Positions 3,761 through 55,882 of a stretch of 64,000 bases of DNA are shown one piece after another. The DNA comes from Apostichopus japonicus (taxonomy: Eukaryota; Echinodermata; Holothuroidea; Aspidochirotida; Stichopodidae): contig NC_092563.1 in NCBI RefSeq assembly GCF_037975245.1, positions 30,841,960 through 30,905,959 on the forward strand. The letters are read 5' to 3'. The translations under genes and the position numbers were made by a program. The notes under the pieces were generated by a model. That model saw only the letters and a list, made by a program, of their open reading frames with translations. It did no database searches and was not told the DNA's origin. How positions within the stretch are numbered: position 1 is the first letter of the stretch; each line of letters opens with the position of its first letter.

Positions 3761-4470
3761 TAATATCTATACTATATCCTTCAACATGTTGCCATGCAAC
3801 AATGAAGATACAGTAAGCTAGCACAGATAGGCCTAACAACAACTTTCGGTCAACTTAGTTTGTTGACCATGTTTCTATCTGCAGTTTAAAGAAAAGCCAT
3901 AATGAAAATATCTACCCTGTGATTACTATCCATGAATTAACAACATACTCTAGTACGGACTCACAATCAATGAAAGACATAATAAAGTTATGGTGGTGTG
4001 ACGTAACTTTGGTGTGTCCCCTAAATTCGCTAACTGTGTTATACAGGGTAGCTGCACTATTAGAAACTGTAGTTGCTGTGTTCAAAAATCAAATTGCAAC
4101 CACTTTATCATCACAATTTAGATCTACAAAGCCTTCACGAAAATGGCCAAAATTGTCACAGCGAAACATCAAGTTTTTATTTTGAGATAATTTTGTGGTT
4201 TATTCGACCCATTTAGCGGAATTACAGAGTAATGTTAAATGCATACGTTAAGTCAGTGATATTTTTCCTTTCTTTGAGCACTTTGCCTGCCGACCTTTAT
4301 AAGAATAAATCTTTCTTTTTTCTGGCAGAATCTGGTCAACCATCAATGAAACTACATCTAGCTGAAGGATAGTTCTAACTAAACCACTGAGCAAAATCAG
4401 CGAGATTGTCACCAGCGCTATGCTTTTTAAGGAACATTAATGCCGTTACGATCGCAAATTTACTGTATAC
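3761..4470. other. Intergenic, nothing recognised
   Basis: Unique-looking AT-rich sequence without a convincing coding region, RNA gene or repeat. Confidence 0.45.
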
Positions 4471-7229: not shown

Positions 7230-9114
7230 CGTATAAATATGGTATAAAAAAATATGTTATGCAGTCGCAAACTCTCCGTCGGTGGATTAAGAGGAGAGGA
7301 TGGTGTACGCCACCAAGTAGTGCCATTCCAATTTGTAAAAAAGGACGATGATTAGGGAAACAACCCTTTAGTTACTGATAGTCAGGATCTTGCAGATCTT
7401 TTGAACGACTATTTTGTGTCGGTTTTCACAAGGGAAGATACGAGTAGTATTCCAGATTTTCAGGGGGGCAGTGATAGGCCTAAACTGGATACGGTCTTAT
7501 TTTCGGATGACGTTGTCTTAAAGGAGCTGCTTCGTCTAAATGTTTCTAAAGCTTCTGGACCGGATGCAATCCAACCGTATTTGTTGAAGACTTTTGCACA
7601 CTATTTCTGCGTTCCACTCTCGTTGATTTTTAGTAAATTTATGGATGAAGGTTATGTTCCTAGGGACTGGAGATGTGCTAATATTACCCCAATTTTCAAG
7701 AAGGGTGATAAGACTAAGCCCTGTAATTATAGGCCCGTTAGTCTCACTAGTGTAGTTTGTAAGGTCATGGAGTCTATTGTTAAAAAGTCTTTGGTCTGTC
7801 ACTTCAGCAGTCAGTCTTTGATCAGAGAGTCTCAGCATGGCTTTTGTCAAAAAAGGTCTTGTCTCACTAATATCCTTGAGTTTATGGAAGATGTAACAAG
7901 CTCACTAAATAGGCAGATGTCTGTAGATGTTGTGTTCCTGGATTTCCAGAAGGCCTTTGATAAAGTTCCCCACCAGCGTCTTTTACTTAGGCTGAAGAGC
8001 ATGGGTGTCATAGGGAATTTACTGTCTTGGATCGGGAATTGGCTTGGTAATAGGGAACAGAGGGTGGTAATTAATGGCTGTGCTTCTTCTTGGCAGAACG
8101 TTACTAGTGGGGTTCCACAAGGGTCTGTATTAGGTCCCCTGTTGTTTGTTGCCTATATAAATGACATCGACGGAGATATTTTGTGTACAGCTAAGAAGTT
8201 TGCTGATGACACCAAATTGTATTCTGAGGTCTCTTCCAAAAGCGATTCTGAGAAATTTCAAGCGGATTTAGATAAGATTTTTTCCTGGTCTCAGGGGTGG
8301 CAAATGCTTTTTAATATTGATAAATGTAAGGTAATGCACATTGGTAGTAGTAACCAAAAGTTTACATACAATCTAAATGGTGTGGAGTTACAGGAGGTCT
8401 CTGTTGAAAGAGACCTAGGTATCTACATTGACTCGTCTCTGCAACCTTCCAAACATTGTCTTGAAGCTGCTAAAAGAGGTAATAGGGTTTTAGGTATGAT
8501 CAAGAGGAACTTCAGTTTTCTGAAAGAGGACATCGTAGTTAGGCTTTATAAGCAGTTGGTTAGGCCTCATCTGGAGTATGCTGTGCAGGCTTGGAACCCT
8601 TATTTTGCTAAGGATAAGGAAGTACTTGAAAAGGTCCAGAGGAGGGCTACTAGGATGATTAGTTCCTTAAAGAGGGTTCCTTATTATAGGCGGTTACAAC
8701 TGTTGAATCTCACCACACTGGAGCTTAGGAGGTTACGTGGGGACTTGATCCAGGTTTTCAAGATTGTGTATGGTTTCGACAATTTATGCTTTACCGACTT
8801 TTTCATGTTTGCAAACAGTAGTTGTACTAGAGGTCATTGTCTTAAACTTCAAAAGTCGCATAGTAGGATTAATATTCGGCATAAATTTTTTTCTAATAGG
8901 GTTGTGAATGAGTGGAATAGTTTGCCTGAGAAAGTTGTACTTGCAAGTAGTGTCAATGGGTTTAAGAATGCTTTGGACAAGCACTTTAAGCATTGTAATC
9001 GGGTCTGAGTGTTTGTGTCTTCAGTTTTTTTCCCTCTCTTTATAGGGTCCTTGATGGGGACTTAAGTGTCCCTCCTGATCCTTTTTTCTACTAAACTAAA
9101 CTAAACTAAACTAA
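7230..9114 (+). mobile_element. 5'-truncated Jockey/CR1-like LINE
   Basis: The unit holds a reverse transcriptase ORF, a short 3'UTR (9,009-9,087) and a simple-repeat tail of four CTAAA units (9091-9110). A short tandem repeat at the 3' end is typical of non-LTR retrotransposons of the CR1/Jockey/I group. The endonuclease domain is missing, as expected from 5' truncation during target-primed reverse transcription. The 5' boundary is approximate; coding similarity to the EN-RT linker can be followed back only to about 7,300. Confidence 0.85.
7401..9008 (+). CDS. LINE reverse transcriptase (Jockey/CR1-like), truncated
   Basis: An open frame of 535 codons covers the reverse transcriptase and C-terminal domain. 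Visible RT blocks in order: SKASGPDAI (block 0/1), ANITPIFKKGDK and NYRPVSLTS (block 2), QHGFCQKRSC, VFLDFQKAFDKVPH (first catalytic Asp), SGVPQGSVLGPLLF, and FADDTKLYS (catalytic Asp pair, Phe in place of the usual Tyr). The C terminus has the WNSLPEKVV / FKNALDKHFK pattern common in Jockey/CR1 proteins. The first codon shown is TTG inside a longer coding frame: the same frame continues upstream as linker-like sequence (NPLVTDSQDLADLL) to an in-frame TAG at 7353-7355 and beyond it, so this is a fragment and not a complete gene. The catalytic core itself looks intact. Confidence 0.92.
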   Translation: MNDYFVSVFTREDTSSIPDFQGGSDRPKLDTVLFSDDVVLKELLRLNVSKASGPDAIQPYLLKTFAHYFCVPLSLIFSKFMDEGYVPRDWRCANITPIFKKGDKTKPCNYRPVSLTSVVCKVMESIVKKSLVCHFSSQSLIRESQHGFCQKRSCLTNILEFMEDVTSSLNRQMSVDVVFLDFQKAFDKVPHQRLLLRLKSMGVIGNLLSWIGNWLGNREQRVVINGCASSWQNVTSGVPQGSVLGPLLFVAYINDIDGDILCTAKKFADDTKLYSEVSSKSDSEKFQADLDKIFSWSQGWQMLFNIDKCKVMHIGSSNQKFTYNLNGVELQEVSVERDLGIYIDSSLQPSKHCLEAAKRGNRVLGMIKRNFSFLKEDIVVRLYKQLVRPHLEYAVQAWNPYFAKDKEVLEKVQRRATRMISSLKRVPYYRRLQLLNLTTLELRRLRGDLIQVFKIVYGFDNLCFTDFFMFANSSCTRGHCLKLQKSHSRINIRHKFFSNRVVNEWNSLPEKVVLASSVNGFKNALDKHFKHCNRV

Positions 9115-12937: not shown

Positions 12938-14615
12938 GCTAGAAGTATCCAACAACTATATAGGACATTCAAAACTATTTTTCACGGACCTCGAGATCAC
13001 AAAATCTTTAAATGTTGAGGATGCTAATAAATGTGATGGGCTGTTAACGGAGGATGAATGTAGAGCCGACCTCTTTTCTATGAGTAAAAGCAAAAGCCCT
13101 GGTAATGATGGATTGTTTGATTGAATTTGATCAGCATTTTTGGCCTCTAATTGGTACTGTTGCAACAGACCCTTTAAATTTCTCGTAAACTCACTTGGGT
13201 CTCTCGAAAGAGCACGTAGTAATATCATTCTTATTCCTAAGCCTGGAAAAGATCATAACTTTGTTAAAAATTATAGGCCTATTTTTTTATTGAATATGGA
13301 TTATAAGATTTGTTCAAAAGCATTAGCTACTTGAATTAAGAAAGTTTTGCCTATCATTATTGGTCACAATCAAACGGGTTATATTAAAGGACGTTTCATC
13401 GGGAAAAATATTCGTTGTATTCTAGATTCGATCGATTTCTGTAAGCTGAATTCAATCCCTGGTCTTTTAGTGTTAACTGATTTTGAAAAAACGTTTGATA
13501 GACTGAATTGGGATTTTATTTTTCATTGCATTGAATGTTTTAATTTCAATTGTAGTTTTTGTCGTTGGATTCGTACGTTATATTCAAACTCTTCTGCTTC
13601 AGTTTTTAGTAACGGTATTTCCTCGGCGCCTTTTGACATTACTAGGGATGTGAGACAAGGTTGTCCTCTCAGCCCTTACATTTATATACTTTGTGTGGAA
13701 TGTCTAGCAATTAACATCAATGCAAGCTTAAATGTTAAAGGTATTTCTATTTTAAATAACGAATTAAAAATCCTCCAGTATGCTGATGATACTATTTTAT
13801 TCCTTGATGGTTCTCATGAGTCATTGAGAGAGGTTATTCTTATCCTGAAAGATTTTAAACTGGCTTCTGGGCTTAAGATTAATTTTTATAAGTCTAGTGT
13901 TTTTCCACTAGGTTCTTTAATTAATCATAAGCCACACTTTATTGACCAGTATGATTTTAGGTGGACTGATGGTCCAGTAATTGTTTTAGGTATTGTTATC
14001 AGCAATGATGGAGATGAACTTTTTCGGTTAAATTTCATGCCCAAGTTGTCTCGACTAAAGTAGTCATTGAATTTGTGGTCTTGTAGAGACCTTACACCTA
14101 TTTGTAAAATCATTTTGGTGAAAACGTTTGCTTTATCTCAATTGGTGTATCTATTTCAATGCCTGCCAAATCCTCCCATTTATTTTATTAAGCTGGTGGA
14201 TAATGTTTTGTATAACTTTATCTGGGCGGGAAAACCCAATAAAATCAAACGTACTGTTATGATTAAATCAATTTCAGAGGGAGGATTAAACGTTACTCAC
14301 ATAAGCAGTTTTATTAATGGTTTAAAATGCACACGGGTTAAGAGATATACTGACACTACTGAGGATTATTGGAAAATGTATTTTTCCTATTATCTTAAAA
14401 AGTTTGGTAAAAAATATCTATTTGAATGTAATGTTATGCCAGGCGACGTTAAAACGGAAAACCATTTCATAAATGACGTACAATATATGCTTGTTCTCTT
14501 TTTGCTTTTAAGAACCCTTCTGGCAATTTTATTGATCAAATTATCTGGAACAACCACAATATTAAAGAAAACAAAAATGTTATTTTTTACAAACATTGGT
14601 ACGAGAAAAATCTGA
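12938..14615 (+). pseudogene. Tx1/L1-like reverse transcriptase, disrupted
   Basis: Coding blocks seen in order: LLTEDECRADL and SKSPGNDG (about 13,030-13,115, ended by TGA), IPKPGK and NYRPIFLLNMDYKICSKAL (about 13,230-13,327), HNQTGYIKGRFIGKNIR, LLVLTDFEKTFDRLNWDF (first catalytic Asp), DVRQGCPLSPYIY, LQYADDTILFL (YADD catalytic pair), ASGLKINFYKS, then CLPNPPIYFIK and FIWAGKPNKIKR from the C-terminal connection region. Longest open pieces are 13,347-14,063 and 14,067-14,615, separated by one TAG. The breaks at about 13,124, 13,334 and 14,061 and the downstream frame changes show it cannot make a full enzyme. Confidence 0.9.
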
Positions 14616-16849: not shown

Positions 16850-17960
16850 CTATGTTCAGCTGAAATCAGCAGAGTAGCAGTAGTGTCACTATGGGAATGT
16901 AAAATTATATAATAATGAATGAATCTAGAACATTATTTAAGGACAATATAGTACATATCGTATGGCAACTCAATGGAATGCAAAGAATACAATTGGGATT
17001 CAGTACTGGAAGATTTTTCATATTCATGTATATTGGAACTGAGGATAAGCAATATTCAATGATTCTCATGGGCATTCACTGACCTTTTATTTGAGGGCAT
17101 CTAACATCATTTCATCTGCAAAGTTTTGAAAGAAGTGGAGGAGGCGAGGGGAAGTTACTGTTACACAGAGTAGCAGTAATGATCAATAATGGGCACTCAT
17201 GCTTAGTAATTGATATAAGATTTGTTGAGATTAATTTCTCTGCAACAATACTTTGATCAATCTATGGCAACACAATGGAAAGTAAAGGAGACAATTGGGA
17301 TTCAGCACTGGTAGATTTTTCATAATCATGTATATTACAGTGTGTACATCCGCAATAATTACTATTTGATATTCAGTATTAATGGGCATCCTTGTGTATC
17401 TGAAATTACATTTTGGAATATTTCTTAAGGTTATTAGGTTATATAACATAATAACACTATGGGAATCTGAAAAAAATATTCAAGTGAATGGATCTAGAAC
17501 ATTATTTGGGGAGTACATAGTACCCAAATTAAGGTGTCGGTTCAAACAATGATTATACCTACATTATACTCACCGTACATCTCTGCAGATATACTTTAAA
17601 AGGACTTTTATACAATTGCAGTGGATCTAGAGTTTGATTACTGTAAAGAGGGGGTCAGGATGTGGGTAGGGAACTGAGGATAGGCAATAATCAATGATTC
17701 TCATGGGCCTGAAAAAAAATATTCAAATGAATGGATCTGCAATATTATAATTATGTATATTACAGTATGTACATTGGCTACGATTACCATTAAATTTTCA
17801 ATGTTTACATGCATTGGGATCTTGGTGTATCTGAAATTGCATTTAAGTTATATGATGTTATTTCACAATGTAAAATTACTCAAATGAATGGTTCTAGAAC
17901 ATTATATGGGACAACATAGTACCCAAATTAAGGTGTAGGTTCAACAATGATTATAGTTAT
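16850..17960. repeat. Diverged tandem duplication (about 300-400 bp unit)
   Basis: Phrases recur in order: aatgaatggatctagaacat near 17,485, with variants near 16,913 and 17,885; gtacccaaattaaggtgt near 17,521 and 17,921; gaactgaggata followed by caatgattctcatgggc near 17,036 and 17,669; gggattcag followed by gatttttcat near 16,990 and 17,297. Spacing varies, so the copies have had indels. It directly precedes the satellite array. Confidence 0.6.
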
Positions 17961-20900
17961 CGCATTTTCGATTTAACGGTACCGCACATTCTATATAACG
18001 GTACCGCACATTCGATTGAACATTACAGCACATTCGATTTAACGGTACCGCTTTATCGATTGAACGGTACCGTTCAATAGAATGTGCTGTACCGCACATT
18101 CGATTAACCGGCACCACACATTATATTTAACGATACTACACATTCGATTTAACGGTACCGCACATTCGATTTACCGGTACCGCACATTCGATTTACCGGT
18201 ACCGCATATTCGATTGAACCGTACCGCATATTCGATTGAACTGTTTGGCATATTTTTTTTTAACGGTACCGCATATTCGATTTAACTGAACCGAACACAC
18301 TATATAACGGTACCGCACATTCGATTAAACGGTACCGCACATTCTATTTAACGGTACTGCAAATTCTATTGAACGGTACCGCTCAATCAAATGTGCGGTA
18401 CCGCATATTCTATTTATTGGTACCGCACATTCTATTTAGCCGTACCTCACAATCTATTTACCGGTACCGCACATTCTATTTAACGGTACCGCAAATTTTA
18501 TTGAACGGTACCGCTCATTCAAATGTGCGGTACCGCATATTCTATTTATTGGTACCGCACATTCGATTGATCCGTACCTCACAATCTATTTACCGGTACC
18601 TCACAATCGATTGAACGGTACAGCACATTCGTTTTAATGGTACCGCATTTCGATTGAATGGTACCGCTCAATCAAATGTGCGATACAGCATATTCTATTT
18701 AACGGTAACGTACTTTCGATTGCACGGTACCGCATAATCGATTGAACGGTACCGAACATTGGATTTACCTGTACCGCACATTCGATTGCACGGTACCGCA
18801 CATTCCATTTACCGGCACTGTACTTTTGATTGCACTGTACCGCACATTCGATTGACCGGCACCGTACTTTCGATTGAACGGTACCGCACATTCCATTTAA
18901 AGGTACCGCATTTCAATTGAATGGTACCGCACATTCGATTGAACGGTACCACACATTCCATTTTCCGGTACCGCACATTCTATTTCCGGCACAGTACTTT
19001 TGATTGCACTGTACCGCACATTCGATTGACCGGCTGCGTACTTTGATTGCACGGTACCGCATAATCGATTGAACGGTATACCGCACATTGACTTTACCTG
19101 TACTGTACATTCTATTTATAGGTAGCGCACAATCGATTGAACGGTACCGCATATTCGATTGAAGTGTTCCGCTTATTCTATTTAACGGTAGCGCATATTC
19201 AAATTAACGGTACCGAACACACTATATAACTGTACCGCACATTCTATTGAACGGTACCGCATATTCGATTCAACGGTACCGCATACTCTATTTAAAGCTA
19301 CCGCATATTCTATATAACGGTACCGATCATACTATTGACCTGTACCGCACATTCCATTGAACAGTACCGCACATTCGATTTAACGGTATCGCACAATCGA
19401 TTTAACTGAACCAAACGTTATATTTAACGGAACCGCTTTTTCGATTAACGGTACCGCTCTATCGAATGTACTGTACCACAAATTCGATTTAACCGTACCG
19501 CATATTCGATTGAGCAGTACCGCACATTCGAATTAACGGTACTGCAAATTCGATATAACGGGACCGCACATTCTGTTTAACGGTATCGAAAATTCTATTT
19601 AACGGTACCGCACATTCGAATGAACGGTACCGCAAATTCTATTCACAGGCACCGCACTTTCGATTTCACTGTACCGCTCAATCGAATGTGCTGTACCGCA
19701 CAAAAGATTTAACGGTAACGCACATTCGATTTAACTATATCACACATTCCATTTAACTGAACCATACATTATATTTAACGGTACCGCACATTCGAATGTG
19801 CTGTATCGCACATTCGATTTATTGGTGCCGCACATTCGATTGGGCAGTACCGCACATTCGAATTAACGGTACCGCACATTAGATTGAACTGTACCGAATA
19901 TTCTATTCAACGGTACCGCTTTTTCAATTAAACGGTACCGCTCAATCGACCGTTCTGTACCACACATTTTATTTAACGGTACCGAACATTCGATTAACCT
20001 GTACCGAACATTTGATTGCACGGTATCGCTAATTCGATTGAACGGTACCGCACATTCGATTTACCGGTACCGCATATTCGATTGAACCGTACCGCATATT
20101 CGATTGAACTGTTTGGCATATTTTTTTTTAACGGTACCGCATATTCGATTTAACTGTACCGAACACACTATATAACGGTACCGCACATTCGATTAAACGG
20201 TACCTCACATTCTATTTAACGGTACCGCAAATTCTATTGAACGGTACCGCTCAATCAAAATGTGCGGTACTGCATATTCTATTTATTGGTACCGCACATT
20301 CTATTTAACCGTACCTCACAATCTATTTACCGGTACCCCACATTCGATTGAACGGTACAGCACATTCGTATTAACGGTACCGCATTTCGATTGAATGCTA
20401 CCGCTCAATCAAATGTGCGGTACAGCATATTCTGTTCAACGGTAACGTAATTTCGATTGCACGGTACCGCATAATGAATCGATTGAACGGTACCGAACAT
20501 TGGATTTACCTGTACCGCATATTATATTTACCGTCACCGTACTTTCTATTGCACGGTATCGCACAATCGTTTTAACGATACCGCACATTCTATTTATAGG
20601 TAGCGCACAATCTATTGAAGATACCGCATATTCGATTGAACTGTTCCACCCGTTTCTGTTTAACGGTAGCGCATATTCGATTGAACGGTACCCTACATTC
20701 TCTTGAACGGTAGCGCATATTCGATTGACTGATACTGCACATTCTATTTACAGGCACCGAAATTTCTATTGTACGGTACCGCACAATCGATTTAACTGTA
20801 CAGCACATACGATATAACGGAACGGCAAATTCTATTTCACTGAACGATACACTTTATTTCACGGTACCGCTTTTTCGATTGAACATTACAGCTCAATAGA

Positions 20901-22988
20901 ATGTGCTGTACTGCATATTCTATTGAACGGTACCGCACATTCGATTGCACGGTACCGCACATTCCATTTTTCGGTACCGCACATTCCATCACCGGAGGCA
21001 AGGGAAAGTGCACGAGCCAGGGACAAGTTGAAACAGAGCGTGATGGCCTTATGTGCCACAAGGCACGAAGAGGATAGTTGAGTTGTGACATTCCATTTAC
21101 CCGCACCGTACCTTTGATTGCACTGTACCGCACATTCGATTGACCGGCACCGTACTTTCGATTGCACGGTACCGCAAAATCGATTGAACGGTACAGCACA
21201 TTCGATTTAACGGTACCGCATATTCTATTTAAAGGTAAAGCATTTCAATTGAATGGTACCTCACATTCGATTGAACGGTACCACACATTCCATTTTCCAG
21301 TACCGCACATTCTATTTACCCGCATCGTACTTTTGATTGCACTGTACCGCACATTCGATTGACCGGCTGCGTACTTTGATTGCACGGTACCGCATAATCG
21401 ATTGAACGGTATACCGCACATTGACTTTACCTGTACTGTACATTCTATTTATAGGTAGCGCACAATCGATTGAACGGTACCGCATATTCGATTGAAGTGT
21501 TCCGCATATTCTATTTAACGGTCGCGTATATTCAATTAAACGGTACCGCTTTATCGATTGAACGTTATACCGCTCAATAGAATGTGCTGTACATTCTATT
21601 TAACGGTACCGCATTTTCGGTTTAACGGTACCGCATTCCTTTTTCTGGTACCGCACTTTCTCTTTACCGGTACTGCACATTCGATTCTACGGTACGGCAC
21701 ATTCTATTTACTGGCACCATACTTTCGATTGCACTGTACCGCACATTCTATTTACCGGCACCACACATTATTTTTAACGGTACTACACATTCTATTTAGC
21801 GGTACCGCACATTCGATTTAACGGTACGGCTAAGTCGATTTACAGGTACCGCATATTCGATTGAACCGTACCGCATATTCGATTGAACTGTTTGGCATAT
21901 TCTATTTAACGGTACCGCATATTCGATTGAACTGTACCGAACACACTATATAACGGTACCGCACATTCGATTGATACCGCACATTATATTTAACGGTATC
22001 GCAAATTCTATTGAACGGTACCGCTCAATCAAATGTGCGGTACCGCATATTCTATTTATTGGTACCGCACATTCTATTTAGCCGTACCTCACAATCTATT
22101 TACCGGTACCGCACATTCTATTTAACGGTACCGCAAATTTTATTGAACGGTACCGCTCATTCAAATGTGCGGTACCGCATATTCTATTTATTGGTACCGC
22201 ACATTCGATTGATCCGTACCTCACAATCTATTTACCGGTACCTCACAATCGATTGAACGGTACAGCACATTCGTTTTAACGGTACCGCATTTCGATTGAA
22301 TGGTACCGCTCAATCAAATGTGCGGTACAGCATATTCTTTTTAACGGTAACGTACTTTCGATTGCACGGTACCGCATAATCGATTGAACGGTACCGAACA
22401 TTGGATTTACCTGTACCGCATATTATATTTACCGTCACCGTACTTTCTATTGCACGGTACCGCACAATCGTTTTAACGATACCGCACATTCTATTTATAG
22501 GTAGCGCACAATCGATTGAAGATACCACATATTCGATTGAACTGTTCCACCCATTTCTATTTAACGGTAGCTCATATTCGATTGAACGGTACCCTACATT
22601 CTCTTGAAAGGGTACCGCACATTCGATTGACTGATACTGCACATTCTATTTACAGGCACCGAAATTTCTATTGTACGGTACCGTACAATCGATTTAACTG
22701 TACAGCACATACGATATAACGGAACAGCAAATTCTATTTCACTGAACGATACATTTTATTTCACGGTACCGCTTTTTCGATTGAACATTACAGCTCAATA
22801 GAATGTGCTGTACTGCATATTCTATTGAACGGTACCGCACATTCGATTGAACAGTACCGCACATTCGATTTAACGGTATCGCACAATCGATTTAACTGAA
22901 CCAAACGTTATATTTAACGGAACCGCTTTTTCGATTAACGGTACCGCTCTATCGAATGTACTGTACCACAAATTCGATTAAACCGTAC
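17961..22988. repeat. 22-bp satellite array, left part
   Basis: Consensus unit GGTACCGCACATTCGATTTAAC or its ...GATTGAAC variant; 22 bp between successive GGTACC starts. Units are diverged from one another but in good register. Many single units occur in the opposite orientation between two GGTACC palindromes, for example 18381-18396 between GGTACC at 18375 and at 18397. The marker ctgtttggcata recurs at 18,241, 20,109 and 21,888, showing a higher-order repeat of about 1.8 kb. Numerous apparent ORFs here are a by-product: three 22-bp units make 66 bp, giving a 22-residue periodic peptide. Confidence 0.95.
20990..21087. other. 98-bp non-satellite insert within the array
   Basis: Unrelated sequence (starting accggaggcaaggg) sits between acattccat on the left and acattccat on the right. 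The flanks could be a target-site duplication or simply the satellite phrase. On the plus strand it reads as 30 codons beginning PEARESARARDKLKQSV and ending in TGA, which looks like the end of a coding sequence. No family was identified. Confidence 0.7.
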
Positions 22989-23585
22989 CAGTGGCGGAGA
23001 AACAGGGGGGCTGGGGGGGGGGGGGTTTAACCCCCCACTTTTTGAAGAGGGGGGGGGTTGGCCCACACAATCAACCCCCCTAGTTTTTGCCAGTAATGTT
23101 CTGTTATAGCCTATGTTATGTGCTCCAAATGGCATAATAAATCAAATTATTAATTTGAAATTGTTAAAGTCATTTCAACCTTTTACCTGGTAGGCTACAT
23201 CAACAATTAACGACCGAAAACCGAGTTAGAATTGACCCACATCTTATTTCTAGCCCCTTTCCCCCACCTTGCGCATTCGAACTTGTAGCCCATAGCGCTA
23301 ACTTCACCCCACAACAGACATACACAAAATAACGTTTTGTTGCTGTTGAATAGCTTTGGAACTGTATACACTTGCCAACTTCAACGAGGTGAAGGAAGGA
23401 AAAGAAAAAGAAGAAAGAGAGAAAAGGAGAAAAGGAGAAAAGGATGGAGTAGAAAATACGGCAAGAAAACGGGAAGAGAAAGAGGAACAGTGACAAAATT
23501 ATTCGAATTTGTAAAGCAAACAGCAGATATCACATCATATTCAGTGAGCATGAAAATGGCGTTCCACGATAAACAGCCTCCAAAC

Positions 23586-24142
23586 CATGGGCGCAGATCC
23601 TGGTGAGGACAGCGGGACGCGTCCCCACCAACTTTTTCAGTAGTGGGGACATGATATACCGTGGCCCCACCAATTTGTCTTGACCAATAGCTGCATTTCA
23701 AGTTCCCCTGTATTAAACTTTGGCGCAGTTTGATCCAGCATTGTGCAAATGACATGCAGCAGTTCTCATTTTATTGTATTTTATCCACAGTTGTTAAATA
23801 TAGGACGGAAATCGCATTTGCGGCAGTCTATATTTGTTTTCTGGGAGAGGACCCCAGACCCATCGTATATACATAAGTCTACTTGGATTATTTGTCCCTG
23901 TTTTCTTTCTGCAGACGCCCATGTATTTCTCCAAACTAAATTTTTAAGCCATGAGATCTAAAACTTTAGGAGGTTTAGGAGCATCATTAGGTCTGGGAAG
24001 TGTTATTTCCGGCGATCTGGGAGGTATATTTGCCCAAAAAAAATCCCACGCTACGCGCGAACCCATGGTCGCGCTCTGCTTAGATAGTGTCATAGAACAG
24101 ACACGCGTCCCCACCATTATCCAAGACTGATCTGCGCCCATG
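23586..24142. mobile_element. Nested non-autonomous element (557 bp)
   Basis: Inverted termini CATGGGCGCAGATC (23586-23599) and GATCTGCGCCCATG (24129-24142). Flanks ctccaaac and ctcaaac look like an 8-bp target duplication with one base lost. A sequence at 62,140-62,316 (opposite orientation) matches both flanks and is continuous across this point, giving an empty site. A terminus of the same family is also present at about 62,043-62,114. Confidence 0.88.
23997..24090 (+). repeat. Shared hAT-internal module, copy in the nested element
   Basis: About 95 bp: tttccggcgatctggga, a variable middle, then cgcgaacccatggtcgcgctctg and cttagatagt. Related copies lie at 9,948-10,045, 24,614-24,706 and 24,775-24,868. 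Confidence 0.75.
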
Positions 24143-24613
24143 CTCAAACTGTCGATGTGTGTAGTGTTCGGTTTCGGAAATATCTGGTATATTTTTATTT
24201 CCTTCAACGAAATTTTTTAGAAGCCGTCTGAATATTCGAAAATTCCCTAACCAACATTCTTCATCATACTTCATCATACTCGTGCAATTTTGACCCGTCT
24301 GTTAGGGTTTGAAGGAGGTTTTTCTATATCTGTTGTCCGTAGATGATATTTTGTGCAACATTATGGGTATGTTTTGAAGTGAATTTATTCACGAGAATTG
24401 TGAATTTTCAAATTCTGAACAGTGGGGCTGACGGATATTGTGGGCCGCGATGAAGAATCACCTACAAAAGCAATGATCCACAGGATATGTGATGAAGTCG
24501 AACGTGATGTGTGACTGGTGACAATCTTCAAAAAGGTTAGATGAGAAAAAAGTATTTGGAAAAACTTGGTTCTCAGGCAAAAGTGTACATATGGTTGTCA
24601 GTTTCAAGCCCGA

Positions 24614-24706
24614 GAAGTGCCATTTCCGGTGATCTGGGGGTACCAAAACCAGAAATTTGCTTGTACGCTGCGCGCCAACCAATGGTGGCGCTCCGCTTAG
24701 ATAGTA
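24614..24706 (+). repeat. Shared hAT-internal module, second copy
   Basis: Reads tttccggtgatctggggg ... gcgcgccaaccaatggtggc gctccgcttagatagt. It is followed at 24,709-24,748 by cgcgccccccgggttag ... catacgcccctg, which resembles the end of yet another element (inverse of CAGGGGCGTATG). Confidence 0.8.
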
Positions 24707-24774
24707 ATACGCGCCCCCCGGGTTAGAAAATCCTGCATACGCCCCTGGTTAAATGCAGCTTTTCAAGGCCTGGG

Positions 24775-24868
24775 CAGTGCCATTTTACTGCAATCTGGGA
24801 GGCAATATTTGCCAACAAATTCTTGTGCACTTCGCGCCAACTTATGATGGCGCTCCACTTAGATAGTG
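24775..24868 (+). repeat. Shared hAT-internal module, third copy
   Basis: Reads cagtgccattttactgcaat ctgggagg ... cgcgccaacttatgatggcg ctccacttagatagtg. It is more diverged than the copy at 24,614 and in the same orientation. Confidence 0.75.
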
Positions 24869-24951
24869 AGCCAGCAGTTATGACTTTTTATTTCATCAAT
24901 GGCCTGCAACCCCCCCCCCCCCCCTCTTCTGACAAGAAATCTCCGCCACTG

Positions 24952-26612
24952 AACCGTACCGCACATTCGATTGAGCAGTACCGCACATTCGATTTAACGG
25001 TACTGCACATTCGATATAACGGGACCGCACATTCTGTTTAACGGTATCGAAAATTCTATTTAACGGTACCGCACATTCGAATGAACGGTACCGCTCAATC
25101 GAATGTGCTGTACCGCACAAAAGATTTAACGGTAACGCACATTCGATTTAACTATATCACACATTCCATTTAACTGAACCATACATTATATTTAACGGTA
25201 CCGCACATTCGAATGTGCTGTATCGCACATTCGATTTATTGGTACCGCACATTCGATTGGGCAGTACCGCACATTCGAATTAACGGTACCGCACATTAGA
25301 TTGAACTGTACCGAATATTCTATTCAACGGTACCGCTTTTTCAATTAAACGGTACCGCTCAATCGACCGTTCTGTACCACACATTTTATTTTACGGTACC
25401 GAACATACTATTAACCTGTACCGAACATTCGATTGCACGGTATCGCTAATTCGATTGAACGGTACCGCATATTCGATTTAACGATACCGCTCATTCTATT
25501 TAACGGTAACGCACAATCTAATTAACGGTACTGCACATTCGAATCCGCGGTTTCGCCCATTGGAGTTAAAGGTATCGTACATTCGATGGAACGATACCTC
25601 ACATTCGATTTAACTTTACCGCACATTCGATCGAACGGTACAGCACATTGGATTGAAAGGTACCGCACATTCAATTTAACAGTACAGCACTTTCCATTGA
25701 ACGGTAACCCACATTCGAATAAACGGTACCGCACATTCTATTTAAAGGAACCGCATATTCGATTGAACAGTACCGCACATTCGATTTAACGGAACACCAT
25801 ATTGTATTTTAGGGTATTGCACATTCGAATGAACGATACCGCACATTTGAATGAAGGGTACCGCAAATTCGAATGAACGATACCGCACATTCGAATCTGA
25901 GGTGTCGCACATTCTATTTAATGGTACCGTACATTCTGCTGAACGTTACCTCACATTCGAATAAACGGTACCGCATATTCTATTTAACGGTACTGCATAT
26001 TCGTTTTTAAGGTACTGCACATTCTACTGAACGTTACTTCACATTCATTTAACGGTAACGAAAATTCGATTTAACGGTACGGCACTCTTGATTTAACGGG
26101 AACCATACATTCTATTTAACGGTAACGCAGAATCTAATTAACAGTACCGCACATTTTGATTGAACGGTACCGCACATTCGATTGAACGGTACCGCACATT
26201 GGATTTAACATTATAGTTAACGGTACCGCACATTCTATTTAACGGTACTGCACATTCTATTTAACAGTACCGCACATTCGAATGAACATTACTGCACATT
26301 CATTTAACCGTATACCACAAATTCTATTTAACGGTATCGCACATTCGAATGCATGGTACCGCACATTCTAGTTAACGGTACTGTTCATTTGATTTAAAAT
26401 TCTATATAACTGTACCGCACATTCGATTCAACGGTACCGCACATTCCATTAACGGTACCGCACATTCGATTTAACATTCTAGTTAACGGTACCGCACATT
26501 CTATTTAACGGTACCGCACATTCTATTTAACAGTACCTCACATTCGATTGAACGGTACCGCACATTCGATTGAGCGGTACCGCACATTCGATGTAACGCT
26601 ACCCCACATTCG
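24952..26612. repeat. 22-bp satellite array, right part
   Basis: The same GGTACC-based satellite continues after the hAT-type insertion. Its first roughly 500 bp match 19,491-20,040 closely (for example gaacgggaccgc-like and gggcagtaccgc variants in the same order), so this belongs to the duplicated block that was split. Toward the right edge units become more regular (several near-consensus copies between 26,150 and 26,600). The array stops abruptly at about 26,612. Confidence 0.95.
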
Positions 26613-26687
26613 CTGAAGTAATTCGCCTCACTACTGAAGTAATTTTTATAGGGCAGATAGTGGCGAATTCCTTTCTAGAATATCTAA

Positions 26688-27075
26688 TATGACACTTGTC
26701 ATTTTGTGTTGAGTCCTTCTGTTTCTAATGCAGCATTAACTTGTGCAAGTTGTTGATTTTGAGCTGTTGCAAGTAATGAGTGTATATCTTTCAATAGTTT
26801 ACTTACTGTTGTCCTTGGCAAGCTGTGTTCTTCTGTTAGTTCAATGTGAACAAGCCTACGGCATCCTGAATATGTTGTCCTGTATGTCCTAGTTATTCTT
26901 CATTATCTAGGTTTGAACCTATACTAATGACATGAATGAGGCTGTCCACAGAATATCCTTCCTTGACCACTAATGAATCAGCAGCAATGGCACATGTACT
27001 TTCACTGATCATAATTTTGGGGGTTGACACTGAATCTGCAATCTTTTGAAATTCGTTTGAAGTCTGAAATGAATA
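26688..27075 (-). pseudogene. Unrecognised coding remnant
   Basis: On the minus strand an acceptor-like tract (tttattcatttcag, ending about 27,065) is followed by an open stretch containing SNEFQKIADSVSTPKIMISE and ending at TAA (26,893-26,895). In another frame, immediately downstream, an open stretch contains RITRTYRTTYSGCRRLVHIE and SLPRTTVSKLLKDIHSLLAT, ending with TGA near 26,688. Composition looks protein-coding, and the abrupt frame change suggests decay or a missed intron. I do not recognise the family. Confidence 0.35.
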
Positions 27076-43309: not shown

Positions 43310-43920
43310 AAAGTCCTGTAGGAATCCTGCAGGAATCCTATAGGATTCCTGTATATGGAACAGGATTCCTTACAAATGGAGATTGAACTATACACCACTA
43401 AGTGTTAGAAACTTGATTTATTCATTGTAGAGCAGGATTCCTTTTACAAAAATACATGATTCTTGAATTCACTATAAAAAATCTACTTTAACAAACATGA
43501 ATCCTTCACATGCAAGCAGGAATCCTTCAGCCACAGTCTGGAATCCTTCATACACATGCAGGATTCTTTCATTTACGTACAAGAATCCTTCATATGCATG
43601 CAGGATTCCATGATGCATGTACAGCAATCCTTCATAAGCATGCAGGATTCCTTTATTTATGTACACAAGTCCTTCATATGCATGCAGGGTTCCTTAATAC
43701 ACATACAAGAATCCTTCGTACACATGTAAGAATCCTTCATTAACCTACAAGAATCCTTCACTCAGCCTATACACATGCAGGAATCCTTCATACACATGTA
43801 GGAATCCTTTATACAAAATAATTAGTCATATGCATGCAGGAATTTTTTATCCTGCATACAAAAATCCTTCACATATGCACACAGGAATCCTTCATATATA
43901 TGCAGGAATCCTTCATTCTC
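43310..43920. repeat. About 22-bp tandem array (aggaatccttcatacacatg type)
   Basis: Units of about 21-22 bp such as caggaatccttcatacacat, diverged, run for roughly 400-600 bp. The first portion (43,310-43,375) has the same ggattcct word in both orientations. The array gives spurious ORFs rich in HAGFL and ILHT on either strand. Confidence 0.85.
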
Positions 43921-44029: not shown

Positions 44030-45525
44030 TGTACTCATGATTTTTAAAAGACTGTGCAAGATAATTTACAGGATTGTACAGGATTACTAAAATGTAATGC
44101 AGGATAACATACAGGACTTTTAAAAGACAATGCAAGAAAAATTACAAGGTTTTACAGGAGTTTTGTAAGACTATTTACAGAATTGCATTGAACTTTTAAT
44201 ATAATTTCATGAGAAATTACAGGATTGTGCAGAATTGTTAAAGGATTATGCAAGATAATATACAGGATTGTACAGGACCTTTAGAAGACTATGCAAGATA
44301 ATTTACAGGATTGTGCAGGATTATTAAAAGATTATGCAAGATAATATACAGGATTTAACAGGACTTTTGAAAGACAATGCAAGACAATTTACAGGGTTGC
44401 ACAGGACTTTTGTAAGACTATGCAAGATAATATACAGGGTTGCACAGGACTTTTGAAAGACTATGCAAGATAATATACAGGATTTAACAGGACTTTTGAA
44501 AGACTATGCAAGATAACTTACAGGATTTAACAGGACTTTTGAAAGACTATGCAAGATAATTTACAGGATTTAACAGGACTTTTGAAAGACTATGCAAGAT
44601 AATTTACAGGATTGTACAGGACTTTTGAAAGACTATGAAAGATAATTTACAGGATCGTACAGGACTTTTACAAGTTTTTGCCCAAATATTACAAGATTTT
44701 ACATGAATTTTAAAAAGCTATGCAAGAAAATATACAGCATTGCACAGGATTATTAACAAATTTTGAAAGATAATATACAGGATTGTACAGGACTTTTAAA
44801 AGACTATGCAAGATAATATACAGGATTTTACAGGGCTTTTGAAAGATTATTAAAGATAATTTACAGGATTGTACAGGACTTTTGAAAGTCTATGCAAGAT
44901 AATTTACAGGAAAACAACAGGACTTTGGAGAGACTATGCAAGATACTTTACAGAATTGTAAAGGACTTTTAAAAGTATATGTAAACAAATTTCAAGATTT
45001 TACATGAATTTAAAAAGTTTATGAAAGATAATATACAGGATTGTACAGGACTTTTGTAAGACTATGCAAGATAATTTACAGGATTGTAAAGGACTTTTGA
45101 AAGACTATGCAAGATAATTTACAGGATTGTACAGTACTTTCGAAAGACTATGCAAGATAATATACAGGGATTAACGGGACTTATGAAGACTATGAAAGAT
45201 AATTTACAGGATTATACAGGATTTTTGAAAGACTATGCAAGATAATTTACAGGATTGTACAGGACTTTCGAAAGACTATGCAAGATAATATACAGGGATT
45301 AACGGGACTTATGAAGACTATGAAAGATAATTTACAGGATTATACAGGATTTTTGAAAGACTATGCAAGATAATATACAGGATGGTACAGGACTTTTGAA
45401 AAACTATGCAAGTTAATTTACAGGATTGTACAGGATTTTTTAAAAGACTATGCAAGATAATATAATGGATTGTACAGGACTTTTGAAAGACTATGCAAGA
45501 TAATATACAGGATTGTACAGGAAAT
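44030..45525. repeat. 43-bp tandem array (acaggattgtacaggacttt type)
   Basis: The 43-bp unit runs acaggattgtacaggacttt, ttgaaagactatgcaagata, then att. About 34 copies by length, with small indels and a larger duplicated block near 45,130-45,360. The same unit recurs in the transposase introns at 48,340-48,480 and 49,020-49,290, linking array and gene as one element. Confidence 0.92.
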
Positions 45526-45775: not shown

Positions 45776-48700
45776 TTATGATATTTCAAAATTATTTGCA
45801 AGGGAACAAGCAATTAAATCTGGGAGGCTATGATGAATATTATCCATTAGTAATACTGGTTTGTAAAGTTCAGAAGGTACAACTATCCTGATACCTTCCT
45901 TCATTGGAGAAACTGCAAACATCCATGAGAGTTTTACACTTTGCTGTAGACGACTTGAAATGAAGCTGTGTTTCTTAGAAAGAGGGTATCCAGTGAAAAT
46001 TGTTCCATCGACATCAAATACATGTAAAATACGCTTGATTATAAAGATCTTCCCACTGTCTAACTCAAACACATAATTACACCTCTTTTTTGAACTGTTC
46101 CATTCTTTTGAATTCACAACAAACCCATTGACAATAGCCCTGCCGTACTCTAAACAGGTCGCTCGTGGAGCATCATAACCAAGCTGGTGCAGAAGTTTCT
46201 TTTCACGTGGGGTCAAAATATGTAAATGTGATTTCCCACACAAAGTTACCTTAGCTTCCCTATACACTGTTCTACTCGTAGCAAACGAACACCCTAGTTT
46301 TTCAAAAAAATTGTCAAATTCTTCAGTCTTTTCATGACTGTTCACAGAAGTGAAAAATTTTGGAATTTGCTGTAGTAATGAAAAATACGAAGTAATTTGT
46401 ACAGATACCCCCTGAGTGCCATGAAAAAGTTTCATGAGCATCCTATTACCATCTTCATACCCAAAAGAACTGTTAGCCCAGAGAGGACCCCAATCAAGGA
46501 CACACTGAGCAATATGGTTGAGCAAGTGCAGGTTGTATCTCATATTTCGAAGTCCATATAGGTCCTGAAACTGCTTGTGAAATGTGCTTACAGAAATGTG
46601 TGCTGTAGTTAACTCTTCAATCGACATGGACCCTTTTAGCAATGTATAAATACCATGTACCAAAAACAGCAGGTGGTTGTAATATTCTGTAGGAAGTATC
46701 CCTCTTAAGCAAGGTACTGAGTAATACAACAAAAAGTTCCTGAATTCAGAAGCTTTCCAATATTTTCTGCATGTCACTGAACGAGGTAATCTCAACATAC
46801 TGTCAGGAGGTGACATAGCCAATAACCTCCTATCAACTTTTGCCATATTCCTACCAATATACCAAGGCTGGGCATGGTTCTCTGTATCAAACCACAGCTG
46901 AAACAAGTGCCTACATGTGCCCAATAGCACACAATGCATGTAATCCACTGAAAAGCCAGATATCATATTGAAGTGTGTAAGCAACATAAGAGGGCTTACA
47001 CCCTTAACACCCATGTGACAATCTTTGCCATTCAATGCAGCTGTTGAGGCATCCCTAATAAAACCTTCATGAGTTCTCCTTAGTGCAGGAAATTCTTGAC
47101 ATGGATAAACCCTACATGTACCATTTCCACTCTCAATAAGATCCCCTTTTTGGTAGCACTAGTTACATCCGTACTCGCCATTGAATTGCTTTGTATTCTG
47201 GACCAAGCACCTTGCAACTGAGTCACAAATACAGAGAACAGAGAAAACTCTTGTACAAATTGTGTCACCCTGTCTGTTTATCCAGGTTATGCCTTTCCTT
47301 TCCAAGTTGTAGCATTCTTTAATAAAAGGTTTGAAAAATGTGTTCATGTTAGGCTTAGAGTTATTGAACCAGAGCCCTGGAAGCAACTTATGTCTTTGCC
47401 GTATCTTTGGAGGAAGTTCATTTACACAGCACTGTATTGGCCAAATTGAAAAATTGGAGGATTTAAAAATTGGAGCGCCATCTGTGTTCCAACTTAATGA
47501 AAGATTATTAGACTTTGGGTCATTGAGAGGCTTAATGGCCTTGTGCATTTCCCCATCATAGATATCTTCAATATTACTATCTTCTAACTTTTTTCTCTCC
47601 CACCTATAGTTCATGTTAGCAACAAAATCATTATCGGCAAATTTGTTAATAAGTTGTGATGCTATAGGGAGCACCATAAAAAATGAATTTTTCTGTCTCA
47701 AAAACCCAGGCTCATATTCCACTTCACAAATATGACACTTCAGATTCTCAACGTTGGTGGTTCCAATGTAACCCTCACAAGTAGGACAAAAATAATGTTT
47801 TTCAGTTGCATCATCAGAAGGCAAATTTAATTCCTTATAAAAGAGATAACGAGTAGATGGTATAGCAGCAGTGACACCTGTGGGTGTGAACAGGTTGACA
47901 AGCGTAAGCAGGTCTTCAACTGCTGCTTTAGTTAAAGCATGGCATATGATGAAACATATTAATAACAACAGTCCCTGACATACAGTTATTTTTGATCCTT
48001 CATACAATGGTTTCTCGAACTTCTCGAAATCACAGTTACCATCTTTACTGTCACCGTTTTGCGGATTATGGCCAACATTGTCATCATTTAAACCATCGGG
48101 AGGATCTGGATTCAAACTTCCACTGTTAGCAGCTTCTCCAGTTCGGTGCGTGTTTTCCACTTCATCTCCATTAGTATCAGCTGAATCCACCTGTAAACAT
48201 AGAAACATCATACCAGTTACATCCACATGAATGCCAGATATTTTCTATTAATTGTTATATCCCATATATACATATGTCATATATATTACAATCCAATCTG
48301 TACAACTAGAGCATCAACTAATACTTATCTACACGATTGTTCACGTTTTTTGAAAGACTATACAGGATAATTTCCATGGTTGGACAGGACTTTTTTACTG
48401 CTTTGCATAATAATTTACAGAATTATGACAGACTATTTCTTTCAATTTACAGGATCAATTTAATTAATGTAGGTTTTTGAAGAAAAAAACAATCCTTTCT
48501 ATTTTTTCTTTTTTATAACAGATTTTTTACACTGAACATTTTTCTTTTCTTGAAAAAATGTTTATATTCTTGTTATACAAAGTGGAATTAACCCCTCTAA
48601 TCACAGTGTGTTAATTGAAGTACTGCAGTTAGGTACAGTGATGCCAAGAAAGCCACTGTCCTGAGTCTGGATGGTTTTCACTATTAATGCTTAGGAAAGA

Positions 48701-49403
48701 ATTCTTCTACAGTTACGTATACATAAGGCTTCCATAGGTACCGTTGAAAAATAGTAGAAACATGTGGTTAAACTTACAGGATTAAACTCATGATTATTTT
48801 CTTCTGGACCTTGGGGCTGCCTGTCACAAAGTTGGTCTCCTTCTAGCAAAGAATCCTCACTCAATATGCCCACAGAATCGGTGTTGTTTCTGACACCTCT
48901 GCAAGGATTACATCCTTCCTGTGCCAAGGGAGGTACTACGGTGCTTGCACCATTGATGTGTTCAATTGTTTCACCTAGATTAGAAAAGAAGAGAATTTTT
49001 AATTTCCAGGGATTTTATTCATTATTATATGTAAGAAAATCTACAAGACTTAACAGGATTATTGAAAGACTATTTAAAGGATTGCATAGGACTTAAAAAA
49101 TATTTTGCACGACAAATTGAGGATTGTACAGGACTTTAAAAGACTATGCATGACGATATACAGGATTGGATAGAATTAGTACACCAACATAACAGGATTG
49201 TGAAGGAATTTTTAAAGATTATGCAAAATAGTTAACAGGATTTTACAGGACTTTTGGAAGACTATGCATGAATATTTACAGGATTGTATAGGTGTGTATA
49301 TCATACCTGCTCCATTAACGTTCTGGTACCGCCTCTTTGAACGATCAGGGACTGGGAAACTGTCATCTTCGAGATATCTCTTGTAAGATACTGCTCTTCT
49401 AGC
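45776..49403 (-). CDS. TNP2-like (CACTA/EnSpm) transposase, three exons, one internal stop
   Basis: Minus strand. Exon 1, 49,403-49,307 (97 bp), after acceptor atatgcag: ARRAVSYKRYLEDDSFPVPD, or it starts at the ATG two codons earlier. Exon 2, 48,974-48,778 (197 bp): ETIEHINGASTVVPPLAQEG onward, acidic. Exon 3, 48,190-45,776. Phases agree: 97 bp leaves one base, 197 bp completes it and ends in phase 0. Exon 3 has a zinc-ribbon pair (FCPTC, LKCHIC), NIEDIYDGEMHK, SWNTDGAPIFKSS (likely first catalytic Asp), LLPGLWFNNSKPNMNTFFKP, CDSVARCLVQNTKQFNGEYG (likely second Asp), GVKGVSPLMLL, FSVDYMHCVLLGTCRHL, YWKASEFRNFLLYYSVP, LNHIAQCVLDWGPLWANSSF and LFHGTQGVSVQI. This is the usual TNP2/transposase_21 order. 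One TAG at 47,159-47,161 sits where relatives have Trp; otherwise the frame is open for about 900 codons. Confidence 0.88.
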
Positions 49404-55300: not shown

Positions 55301-55882
55301 GCACATAGCATTCCTAGAAAAGATACGTGAAGGTCACTTTCACAGAATTTCTGATGAATCGGAATGGTTGCTATCTACAACTGCATTGAAACTGCATTGG
55401 CAAAGGTGCTGCTGGGTGGCTCGGTTGTGGGCAGAAGCTTGCAATAGCAATGTTAGTGTTCCCCTTATTACATCCCATGGGTGGCCTATATCAAGAGACA
55501 CAATTAGTTTTGTATGGGACACAGATGAAAATATATCCAAGGTGGATTCAAATCAAAGAATGTTCAAAGGGGGTTGCATGTGTACCAAAGGCTGTTTGCA
55601 AAACTGGTGCAAATGTAAGAAGGGTTCAAAACCATGTTCTCTATTTTGTATGTGCAAAAACTGTCACAATGTGTCACTTCAAGAAAGCACTACCAGTCAA
55701 TCAACTTTACCACAAACATCAAGTGGTAGTGATTCATGCTCTGATTATTCTGATGAAACATCCAGTGAATCAGATCAAAATTCGGTAGTCGATCCTGGAT
55801 GGTTACAGCACTAGTGACAGTTTTGATTCGCCTCATGATTTAGAGATACCGTGTATTGATGAAACAGATCCATTTAATTTCT
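52326..55882 (+). pseudogene. Degraded multi-domain gene ending in a tesmin/TSO1-type CXC motif
   Basis: Plus-strand protein family I have seen as multicopy 'uncharacterized' genes in aquatic animals. Order: after acceptor gttttgtaacag, YHPDRAPGPCAVCHDRKLAI and, in the next frame, PKHTKLFILLRERDISDHSC plus CYACQKRLMKSSEIAANKRK (zinc-binding, Cys pairs); 52,650-53,192 (IVAGDTKTYEYLLEAKRLYG, LLPYIGKWRLLKN); 53,180-53,744 (FWIDFTHRDMLHY, GAPGCCVSLDESHEMIINKE); 53,692-54,021; 54,107-54,538 (GGYAKFLYRRWVERS, EIHIVFDHPHRHGISPKDVE, nuclease-like); 54,548-55,111; 55,125-55,814 with GGCMCTKGCLQNWCKCKKGS and CSLFCMCKNC. An acidic tail ends at TAG 55,880-55,882 in another frame. At least five frame changes and one TGA (54,536) break it. 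Confidence 0.7.
55569..55670 (+). other. CXC (tesmin/TSO1-like) half-domain
   Basis: Spacing C-x-C-x3-C-x4-C-x-C-x6-C-x3-C-x-C-x2-C is clear in GGCMCTKGCLQNWCKCKK followed by CSLFCMCKNC. Such cysteine-rich repeats bind zinc and, in tesmin/TSO1/LIN54 proteins, DNA. Only one repeat is present. It is the best preserved part of the decayed gene. Confidence 0.8.

Follow-up and report, generated by a model that had tools for sequence, protein, structure and literature searches.

Inverted units of a near-palindromic 22-bp satellite in Apostichopus japonicus: probably a few in-register flips multiplied by duplication

When single units of a tandem satellite read against their neighbours, does each record an inversion of its own, or are they copies of a few earlier changes? 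The question is raised by a stretch of 64,000 nucleotides from Apostichopus japonicus (Echinodermata, Holothuroidea; NCBI RefSeq assembly GCF_037975245.1, contig NC_092563.1, forward strand), hereafter the window, in which positions 17961 to 26612 hold a satellite with 22-bp units. The initial annotation of this DNA proposed that single units invert recurrently between GGTACC palindromes, by hairpin formation, template switching or site-specific cutting. Our analysis of the array, and of the same satellite across the genome, does not support repeated single-unit inversion within the array: the inverted units are mostly copies, as their shared contexts, the duplicated blocks and a common sequence mark indicate. 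We consider it likely that a quasi-palindrome underwent a few in-register flips or template-switch changes, which were multiplied by duplication and kept in a diverged patch that does not homogenise.

The design of the unit is central to this question. The genome-wide unit, with the core GCACATTC/GATTGATC and the boundary GGT/ACC, equals its reverse complement at 16 of 22 positions, a degree of self-complementarity that 2.5% of shuffled 22-mers reach at their best phase. Two dyad axes, GGT/ACC and TC/GA, lie 11 bp apart. With so much self-complementarity, a whole-unit flip alters only about 6 bases and a half-unit flip amounts to 3 substitutions; because of the distance between the axes, any event centred on either keeps the 22-bp register. 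Elsewhere in the genome (contigs are designated C, inspected pieces L), a 3-unit inversion on C11 present in 4 copies (L064-L067) has TCGA at both bounds, a 10.5-unit inversion (L072) has GGTATC at its left and TCGA at its right, and a block reversal (L052) lies at GGTACC. Multi-unit inverted runs comprise 3, 4, 10.5 and 18 units and whole blocks, and L052, L072, L075, L076 and L078 show switches of orientation that range from 10 units up to whole blocks. The inverted segments of L010 and L064, compared with their flanks for signs of copying, resemble several forward segments about equally. The suggestion that flips at a palindromic boundary preserve register survives as an in-register tendency, but GGTACC is not special, TCGA being an equally clear axis. 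In the window, inverted-repeat arms (GGTACC or CGGTACCGC...GCGGTACCG) flank a flipped core at 18374-18403. The flipped stretch 18354-18423 is predicted to form a strong DNA hairpin (z -4.6), but good folding is also predicted for an unflipped trimer (z -3.3).

The array was delimited with Tandem Repeats Finder (TRF), which reports 228.8 copies of period 22 at 17967-22989, a further period-22 row at 24952-26209 and multiples of 22 up to 26612. It was segmented with a profile hidden Markov model (HMM) built on 11-bp half-units, whose four states combine the left and right halves with the two orientations. Its two parts are as follows.

17961-22988, forward strand: left part of the 22-bp satellite array, about 229 units, TRF consensus TTCGATTTAACGGTACCGCACA (TRF, HMM units).
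24952-26612, forward strand: right part of the array, beyond an insertion (TRF, HMM); 24956-26381 aligns with 19539-20977 at 78.7%.

The HMM divided the array into 298 units, of which 263 measure exactly 22 bp. It called 281 forward, 12 reversed in full and 5 reversed in one half. Four more (19453, 22943, 19937 and 25354) are forward in the HMM and reversed by likelihood score. The comparisons below use 18 inverted units: all 12 that the HMM calls fully reversed, two of the half-reversed ones (18510 and 22152) and the four just named. The other three half-reversed units, at 19783, 25200 and 25882, were excluded. The reversed units in the array are real and beyond chance. A log-likelihood ratio above 2 in favour of the reversed profile was obtained for 17 of the 263 22-bp units, where 2000 column shuffles yielded 0.55 on average and never more than 5; a ratio above 6 was reached by 11 units, against a shuffle mean of 0.06. 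Shared descent of copies inflates these counts. Full inverted units bear 5-6 linked changes. The units concerned, grouped by a context test described below, are listed here.

18378-18399, reverse strand: inverted unit, group A, with copies at 20246 and 22020 and half-inverted relatives at 18510 and 22152 (context test).
20246-20268, reverse strand: inverted unit of 23 bp, group A copy at offset 1868 (block alignment, context test).
22020-22041, reverse strand: inverted unit, group A copy at offset 3642, the block offset being 3649 (block alignment, context test).
18663-18684, reverse strand: inverted unit, group C, with copies at 20400 and 22305 (context test).
20888-20909, reverse strand: inverted unit, group D, with a copy at 22790 at offset 1902, the block offset being 1893 (block alignment, context test).
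22790-22811, reverse strand: inverted unit, group D copy (context test).
19673-19694, reverse strand: inverted unit, group E, with a copy at 25090 at offset 5417 (block alignment, context test).
25090-25111, reverse strand: inverted unit, group E copy (block alignment, context test).
19937-19958, reverse strand: partly inverted unit, group G, with a copy at 25354 at offset 5417 (HMM profile, block alignment, context test).
19453-19474, reverse strand: partly inverted unit, group F, identical to unit 22943, the contexts agreeing only at the 96th percentile (profile, context test).
18069-18090, reverse strand: inverted unit with GTTC in place of GCTC, alone in the context test.
21569-21590, reverse strand: inverted unit of TAGA form, alone in the context test (profile, context test).
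19783-19804, no strand: half-inverted (palindromic) unit GCACATTCGAATGTGC, with a copy at 25200 (profile).

Inverted cores are present at 18381, 22023 and 25093, where the annotation had placed them, and the 22-bp spacing is kept there; at 18513, within a further place it had cited, and at 22155, clear inversion is limited to the right half. The regularity it had described is looser than claimed. GGTACC does not bound every unit, since exact copies number 120 in 17901-26700 against 298 units, and after several inverted units, including the one near 25,087, it is replaced by TGTACC, TGTACT, GATACA or GGTACA. The form gctcaatcRaatgtgc, said to be constant, is exact in 7 of the 18 inverted units (18381, 18666, 19676, 20403, 22023, 22308 and 25093).

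Whether these units arose one by one was addressed by comparing the 44 bp on each side of the 18 inverted units, the unit itself being excluded. Random in-phase pairs of contexts agree on average at 53.8 of 88 positions (99th percentile, 71), and 17 of the 153 pairs of inverted-unit contexts reach at least this percentile where 1.5 would be expected. The 18 units fall into 8 context groups, of which four, of 7, 3, 2 and 2 members, hold 14 units and the remaining four are singletons; the joining of 18378 and its kin with 20888 and 22790 sits exactly at the threshold. Duplications within the array are consistent with this picture.

17961-19368 and 21610-22989 (span 17961-22989), forward strand: internal duplication, 82.4% identity over 1414 columns (self-BLAST).
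19229-20983 and 21122-22885 (span 19229-22885), forward strand: internal duplication, 81.8% identity over 1782 columns (self-BLAST).

A further duplicated block pairs 17979-18910 with 19847-20805 (80.7%), and the pair joining the two parts of the array was given above; the remaining self-BLAST alignments between phases are mostly at 70-75%. Offsets between inverted units of about 1.87, 1.9, 3.64 and 5.42 kb match those of the duplicated blocks, and most copies lie at or near block offsets. In addition, GCTC is found on 17 of 18 inverted units and its forward counterpart GAGC on 3 of 243 forward units (Fisher p 1e-22, overstated because copies are counted as independent). Shared bases suggest that the full inverted units of the array may derive from one to three founding flips, accompanied by perhaps two half-unit changes. 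The alternative that the annotation had itself named, inherited copies spread by duplication, comes close to describing the array.

The same unit is abundant in the genome, a search the annotation had proposed. A 22-mer pattern of the family occurs, with at most 1 mismatch, at 67,808 places. The matches listed are spread over at least 20 of 35 contigs and are mostly confined to a single region of each; most of 20 nine-kb pieces, chosen from pattern hits and not at random, are satellite throughout. This clustering is suggestive of a centromere-like position for the main arrays. The window (C3 30841960-30905959) lies apart from them: its array is about 0.57 Mb from the end of C3 (31,432,100 bases), far from the main satellite cluster of that contig near 11.0-11.4 Mb. 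Exact joins are overwhelmingly head-to-tail (44,152 and 25,192, or 69,344), which does not fit the annotation's view of a repeat unlike the usual head-to-tail satellite. Exact reversed joins total 43, comprising 4 head-to-head and 39 tail-to-tail, and counts of exact palindromic units were 2 (both within L007) and 29. These exact-pattern counts are lower bounds that miss diverged flips. Sequence was inspected at all 43 reversed joins and at 6 palindromic units not adjoining one.

By our reading of the context comparison, the 39 tail-to-tail joins collapse to 9-10 contexts: on C1 (4 copies), C10 with C14 (4), C11 (4 and 10), C16 (7), a C16 block (1), C18 (2), C19 (6, in two forms) and C23 (1). 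The sole true orientation switch among them is L052, whose end is overlapped by L079, reversed throughout; in each of the remaining 38, one left half has become GATCAATC or GTTCAATC. Head-to-head sites were sought as GAATGTGC followed after 0-30 bases by GCACATTC, a search that favours no spacing. It found 41 sites, 5 of them non-satellite by our reading, 7 in the window and 29 elsewhere. With copies collapsed, those outside the window represent 17 places, 13 of which are in register (spacing 6 or 28) against 1.1 expected under uniform spacing (P 6e-13). Since half-unit changes are in register by nature, places with reversed runs of at least 1.5 units make a fairer subset. Here 4 of 7 are in register (L062, L068, L072 and L073; P 0.0005) and L075, L076 and L078 are out; the subset was hand-picked, taking one copy where there were several, from inspected sequences that did not include C11:5864799 and C12:34357023. 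Inversion thus respects the 22-bp lattice in most cases, and template switching would be one way of producing it.

Several pattern classes were set aside as signs of inversion. A tail-to-tail search with any spacing gave 344 sites, which among the matches listed are all on C1 and mostly at spacing 14; that spacing reflects a variant right half with two substitutions, GATCAATC, and no inversion. The 168 matches of our first inverted-unit pattern are uninformative, because the pattern allowed GTTC and so described the plain reverse complement of forward units. Matches with GCTC in the inspected C2, C3 and C10 pieces proved to be forward GAGC units of arrays on the opposite strand.

Flips are unevenly spread. 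No inverted half was found in 15 of the 20 nine-kb pieces at the stricter setting, the looser one adding a single half in L012. Reversed runs increase with divergence (Spearman 0.50, p 0.026, n=20 pieces), and the window array is both the most diverged (20.4%) and the richest in inverted runs (17). In the C6 piece L007, all 19 reversed halves lie within the first 3 kb, on the whole its more diverged part. At 910-931 this piece carries the same inverted core, GCTCAATCAAATGTGC, as the window array; common descent is favoured only through two further shared bases, and an independent event is possible. Three flip lineages are shared by the two satellite regions of C11, which lie about 3.2 Mb from each other (L029-030 with L035-036; L031-034 with L037-042; L064-066 with L067). 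Within this one assembly, the pattern fits slow inherited marks better than fast flipping. On both C7 and C11, satellite places reappear with equal spacing some 3.2 Mb further on in the contig, which would reflect a large duplication or uncollapsed haplotypes. At the end of the C22 array (L021, about 3806-3858) the last unit is reversed relative to its neighbour. The sequence AACGATAACTCTCAATC, in the array's forward sense, is common to this array end and to the reversed C6 unit (L007 1216-1243), possibly marking a common array end.

These observations bear unequally on the explanations that can be offered. Repeated inversion of single units, driven by cutting or recombination at GGTACC and still active in the array, would account for flips that hold the 22-bp lattice, for junctions that are in some cases exact GGTACC palindromes, for the 17 inverted runs and for one C11 half-flip lineage (5864799, 5867473) found in the first region only. 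We regard it as very improbable nonetheless: inverted units share contexts and marks and lie mostly within duplicated blocks, TCGA also serves as an axis, exact reversed joins are few beside head-to-tail ones, and the three lineages in both C11 regions behave as inherited marks would. No result pointed to site-specific cutting, at which no analysis was directly aimed. An assembly artefact is less probable still. Such repeats are hard to assemble, and the apparently duplicate stretches of C7 and C11 could be uncollapsed haplotypes, but the array is about 20% diverged from the genome unit, so that long reads are expected to place uniquely, and the flips are found in differing contexts on separate chromosomes.

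A more serious competitor, although an unlikely one, dispenses with inversion altogether and holds that units of a near-palindrome come to look reversed through substitutions that are then inherited and reshuffled by exchange. One-step intermediates towards the 3 substitutions of a half flip are common (GAACATTC in 493 contexts, GAATGATC in 87), and templating by neighbours was not seen. Nor can an excess of palindromic half-forms, though suggestive, be taken as proof of inversion, since among 3-substitution variants the left form ranks 2 of 71 and the right 2 of 118 (10 of 104 without L007), and inherited variants give similar counts. The linked changes of full inverted units, the 11 strongest of which far exceed the shuffles (an excess that copies inflate), argue against substitution, and the multi-unit runs and whole blocks would hardly be made by it. 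It is possible, if doubtful, that template switching at either axis of this two-axis quasi-palindrome repeatedly produces in-register half-, single- and multi-unit flips throughout the genome; orientation marks would then keep a slow record of such switching within putatively centromeric arrays.

We favour a few founding flips multiplied by duplication. The window array would be an old, diverged, stray patch of the abundant satellite, in which founding flips may have arisen through small inversions or through replication template switching between palindromic arms. Unequal exchange or segmental duplication may then have multiplied them. In the main arrays a rare flip would either be lost to homogenisation or become fixed by it, and a stray patch that no longer homogenises could keep it. 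Several points weigh against this account. The number of founding events is not fixed, because the 99% cut leaves 8 groups and merging them to one to three leans on shared bases. The near-identical pairs 19453/22943 and 18069/21569, at an offset of about 3.5 kb, lie at background block similarity (73.9%), so that their common descent depends on the units themselves and is less sure. Of the 17 head-to-head places found elsewhere in the genome, four do not keep the lattice. Higher divergence makes weak calls likelier, and L020, at 17.1% divergence, has no flip, with only 114 halves scored. As for template switching, the flipped half in 12 distinct half-flips is no nearer to its neighbours than to random halves of the same piece (9.75 against 9.62 of 11, p 0.34, a comparison of low power). 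Moreover, forward GAGC units occur in L004, L005 and L012, yet these have no flipped half at the stricter setting; longer palindromic arms thus do not visibly promote flipping.

Known systems offer partial parallels. The major and minor satellites of Tribolium madens have macro-dyad symmetries, and dyad symmetry is discussed as a feature of centromeric satellites (PMC13081366). The likeness extends to abundance, to (peri)centromere-like location, to orientation changes within arrays, to short inverted repeats in the unit and to multi-copy inversion points. The beetle repeats, however, are of about 110 bp (major) and 704 bp (minor), their many-unit subarrays alternate, and their inversion sites are conserved and number thousands (PMC13081366). 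The unit studied here has 22 bp, its sampled arrays run head-to-tail almost throughout, and flips are infrequent. Arm homogenisation and spacer inversion have both been described as products of template switching between short inverted repeats (PMC8604942). Arms of GGTACC or CGGTACCGC around a 12-16 bp core would likewise yield in-register core inversion, half-flips resembling arm homogenisation and unit flips spacer inversion. In the yeast case, the process was inferred from strains with reconstructed ancestors, and spacer inversion was seen only for arms above 9 bp (PMC8604942), whereas the arms here are of about 6-9 bp and copying from a neighbour was not detected. Compared with an ordinary head-to-tail satellite, the exact joins and the tendency to one region per contig are alike, and the near-palindromic unit and the small minority of reversed units and blocks are not. 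The array is largely ordinary, an abundant near-palindromic satellite with rare flips on two axes and behaviour of known kinds. Four words of its unit found no match in the literature searched, and the satellite may be described elsewhere. The case matters because template switching is difficult to observe within homogeneous repeats; flips of a short unit that stays in register leave orientation marks that can be counted and dated. Since block copying multiplies each mark, reduction to independent events must come first.

The span 17961-26612, annotated as one satellite, is indeed a 22-bp tandem array but not a continuous one, being divided by an inserted element.

22989-24951, no strand: inserted hAT-like element (1963 bp) with a 12-bp terminal inverted repeat, CAGTGGCGGAGA, and an 8-bp target-site duplication, AACCGTAC, at 22981-22988 and 24952-24959.

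As the 8-bp duplication flanks the insertion on both sides, the satellite was a single array before it. The element carries the terminal inverted repeat and 8-bp target-site duplication of hAT elements, and we take it to be hAT-like on these grounds. It contains a single frame of at least 120 amino acids (23381-23770) and has a G run and a C run just inside its two ends.

Elsewhere in the window, retroelement reverse transcriptase frames lie at 7356-9008 and 13335-14060 (RVT_1, E 6e-34 and 4e-23). Weak similarity, under the Pfam cut-off, was found to Transposase_21 at 47159-48241 (reverse strand) and to DUF6589 at 52638-53189 (forward strand). The frames 45776-47155, 53259-53741, 54539-55108 and 55083-55811 gave no Pfam match, and Rfam at its gathering threshold gave none within the window. 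Outside it, the 16,099-bp mitochondrial contig C35 gives sensible translations under the echinoderm code (AAA as Asn) and has COX1 with apparent ND4L and COX2 after it. Fragments of COX1 containing TGA codons also occur at several points of the 31,219-bp contig C29, perhaps a second, rearranged mitochondrial assembly. Two other tandem repeats occur in the window. One, at 44217-45522, has a 43-bp period, 30 copies and the consensus TTACAGGATTGTACAGGACTTTTGAAAGACTATGCAAGATAAT, with a small similar array at 49190-49292. The other, at 43495-43916, has a period of 21, 42 or 84; its 42-bp consensus contains AGGAATCC and the reverse complement GGATTCCT and thus shows inverted symmetry too.

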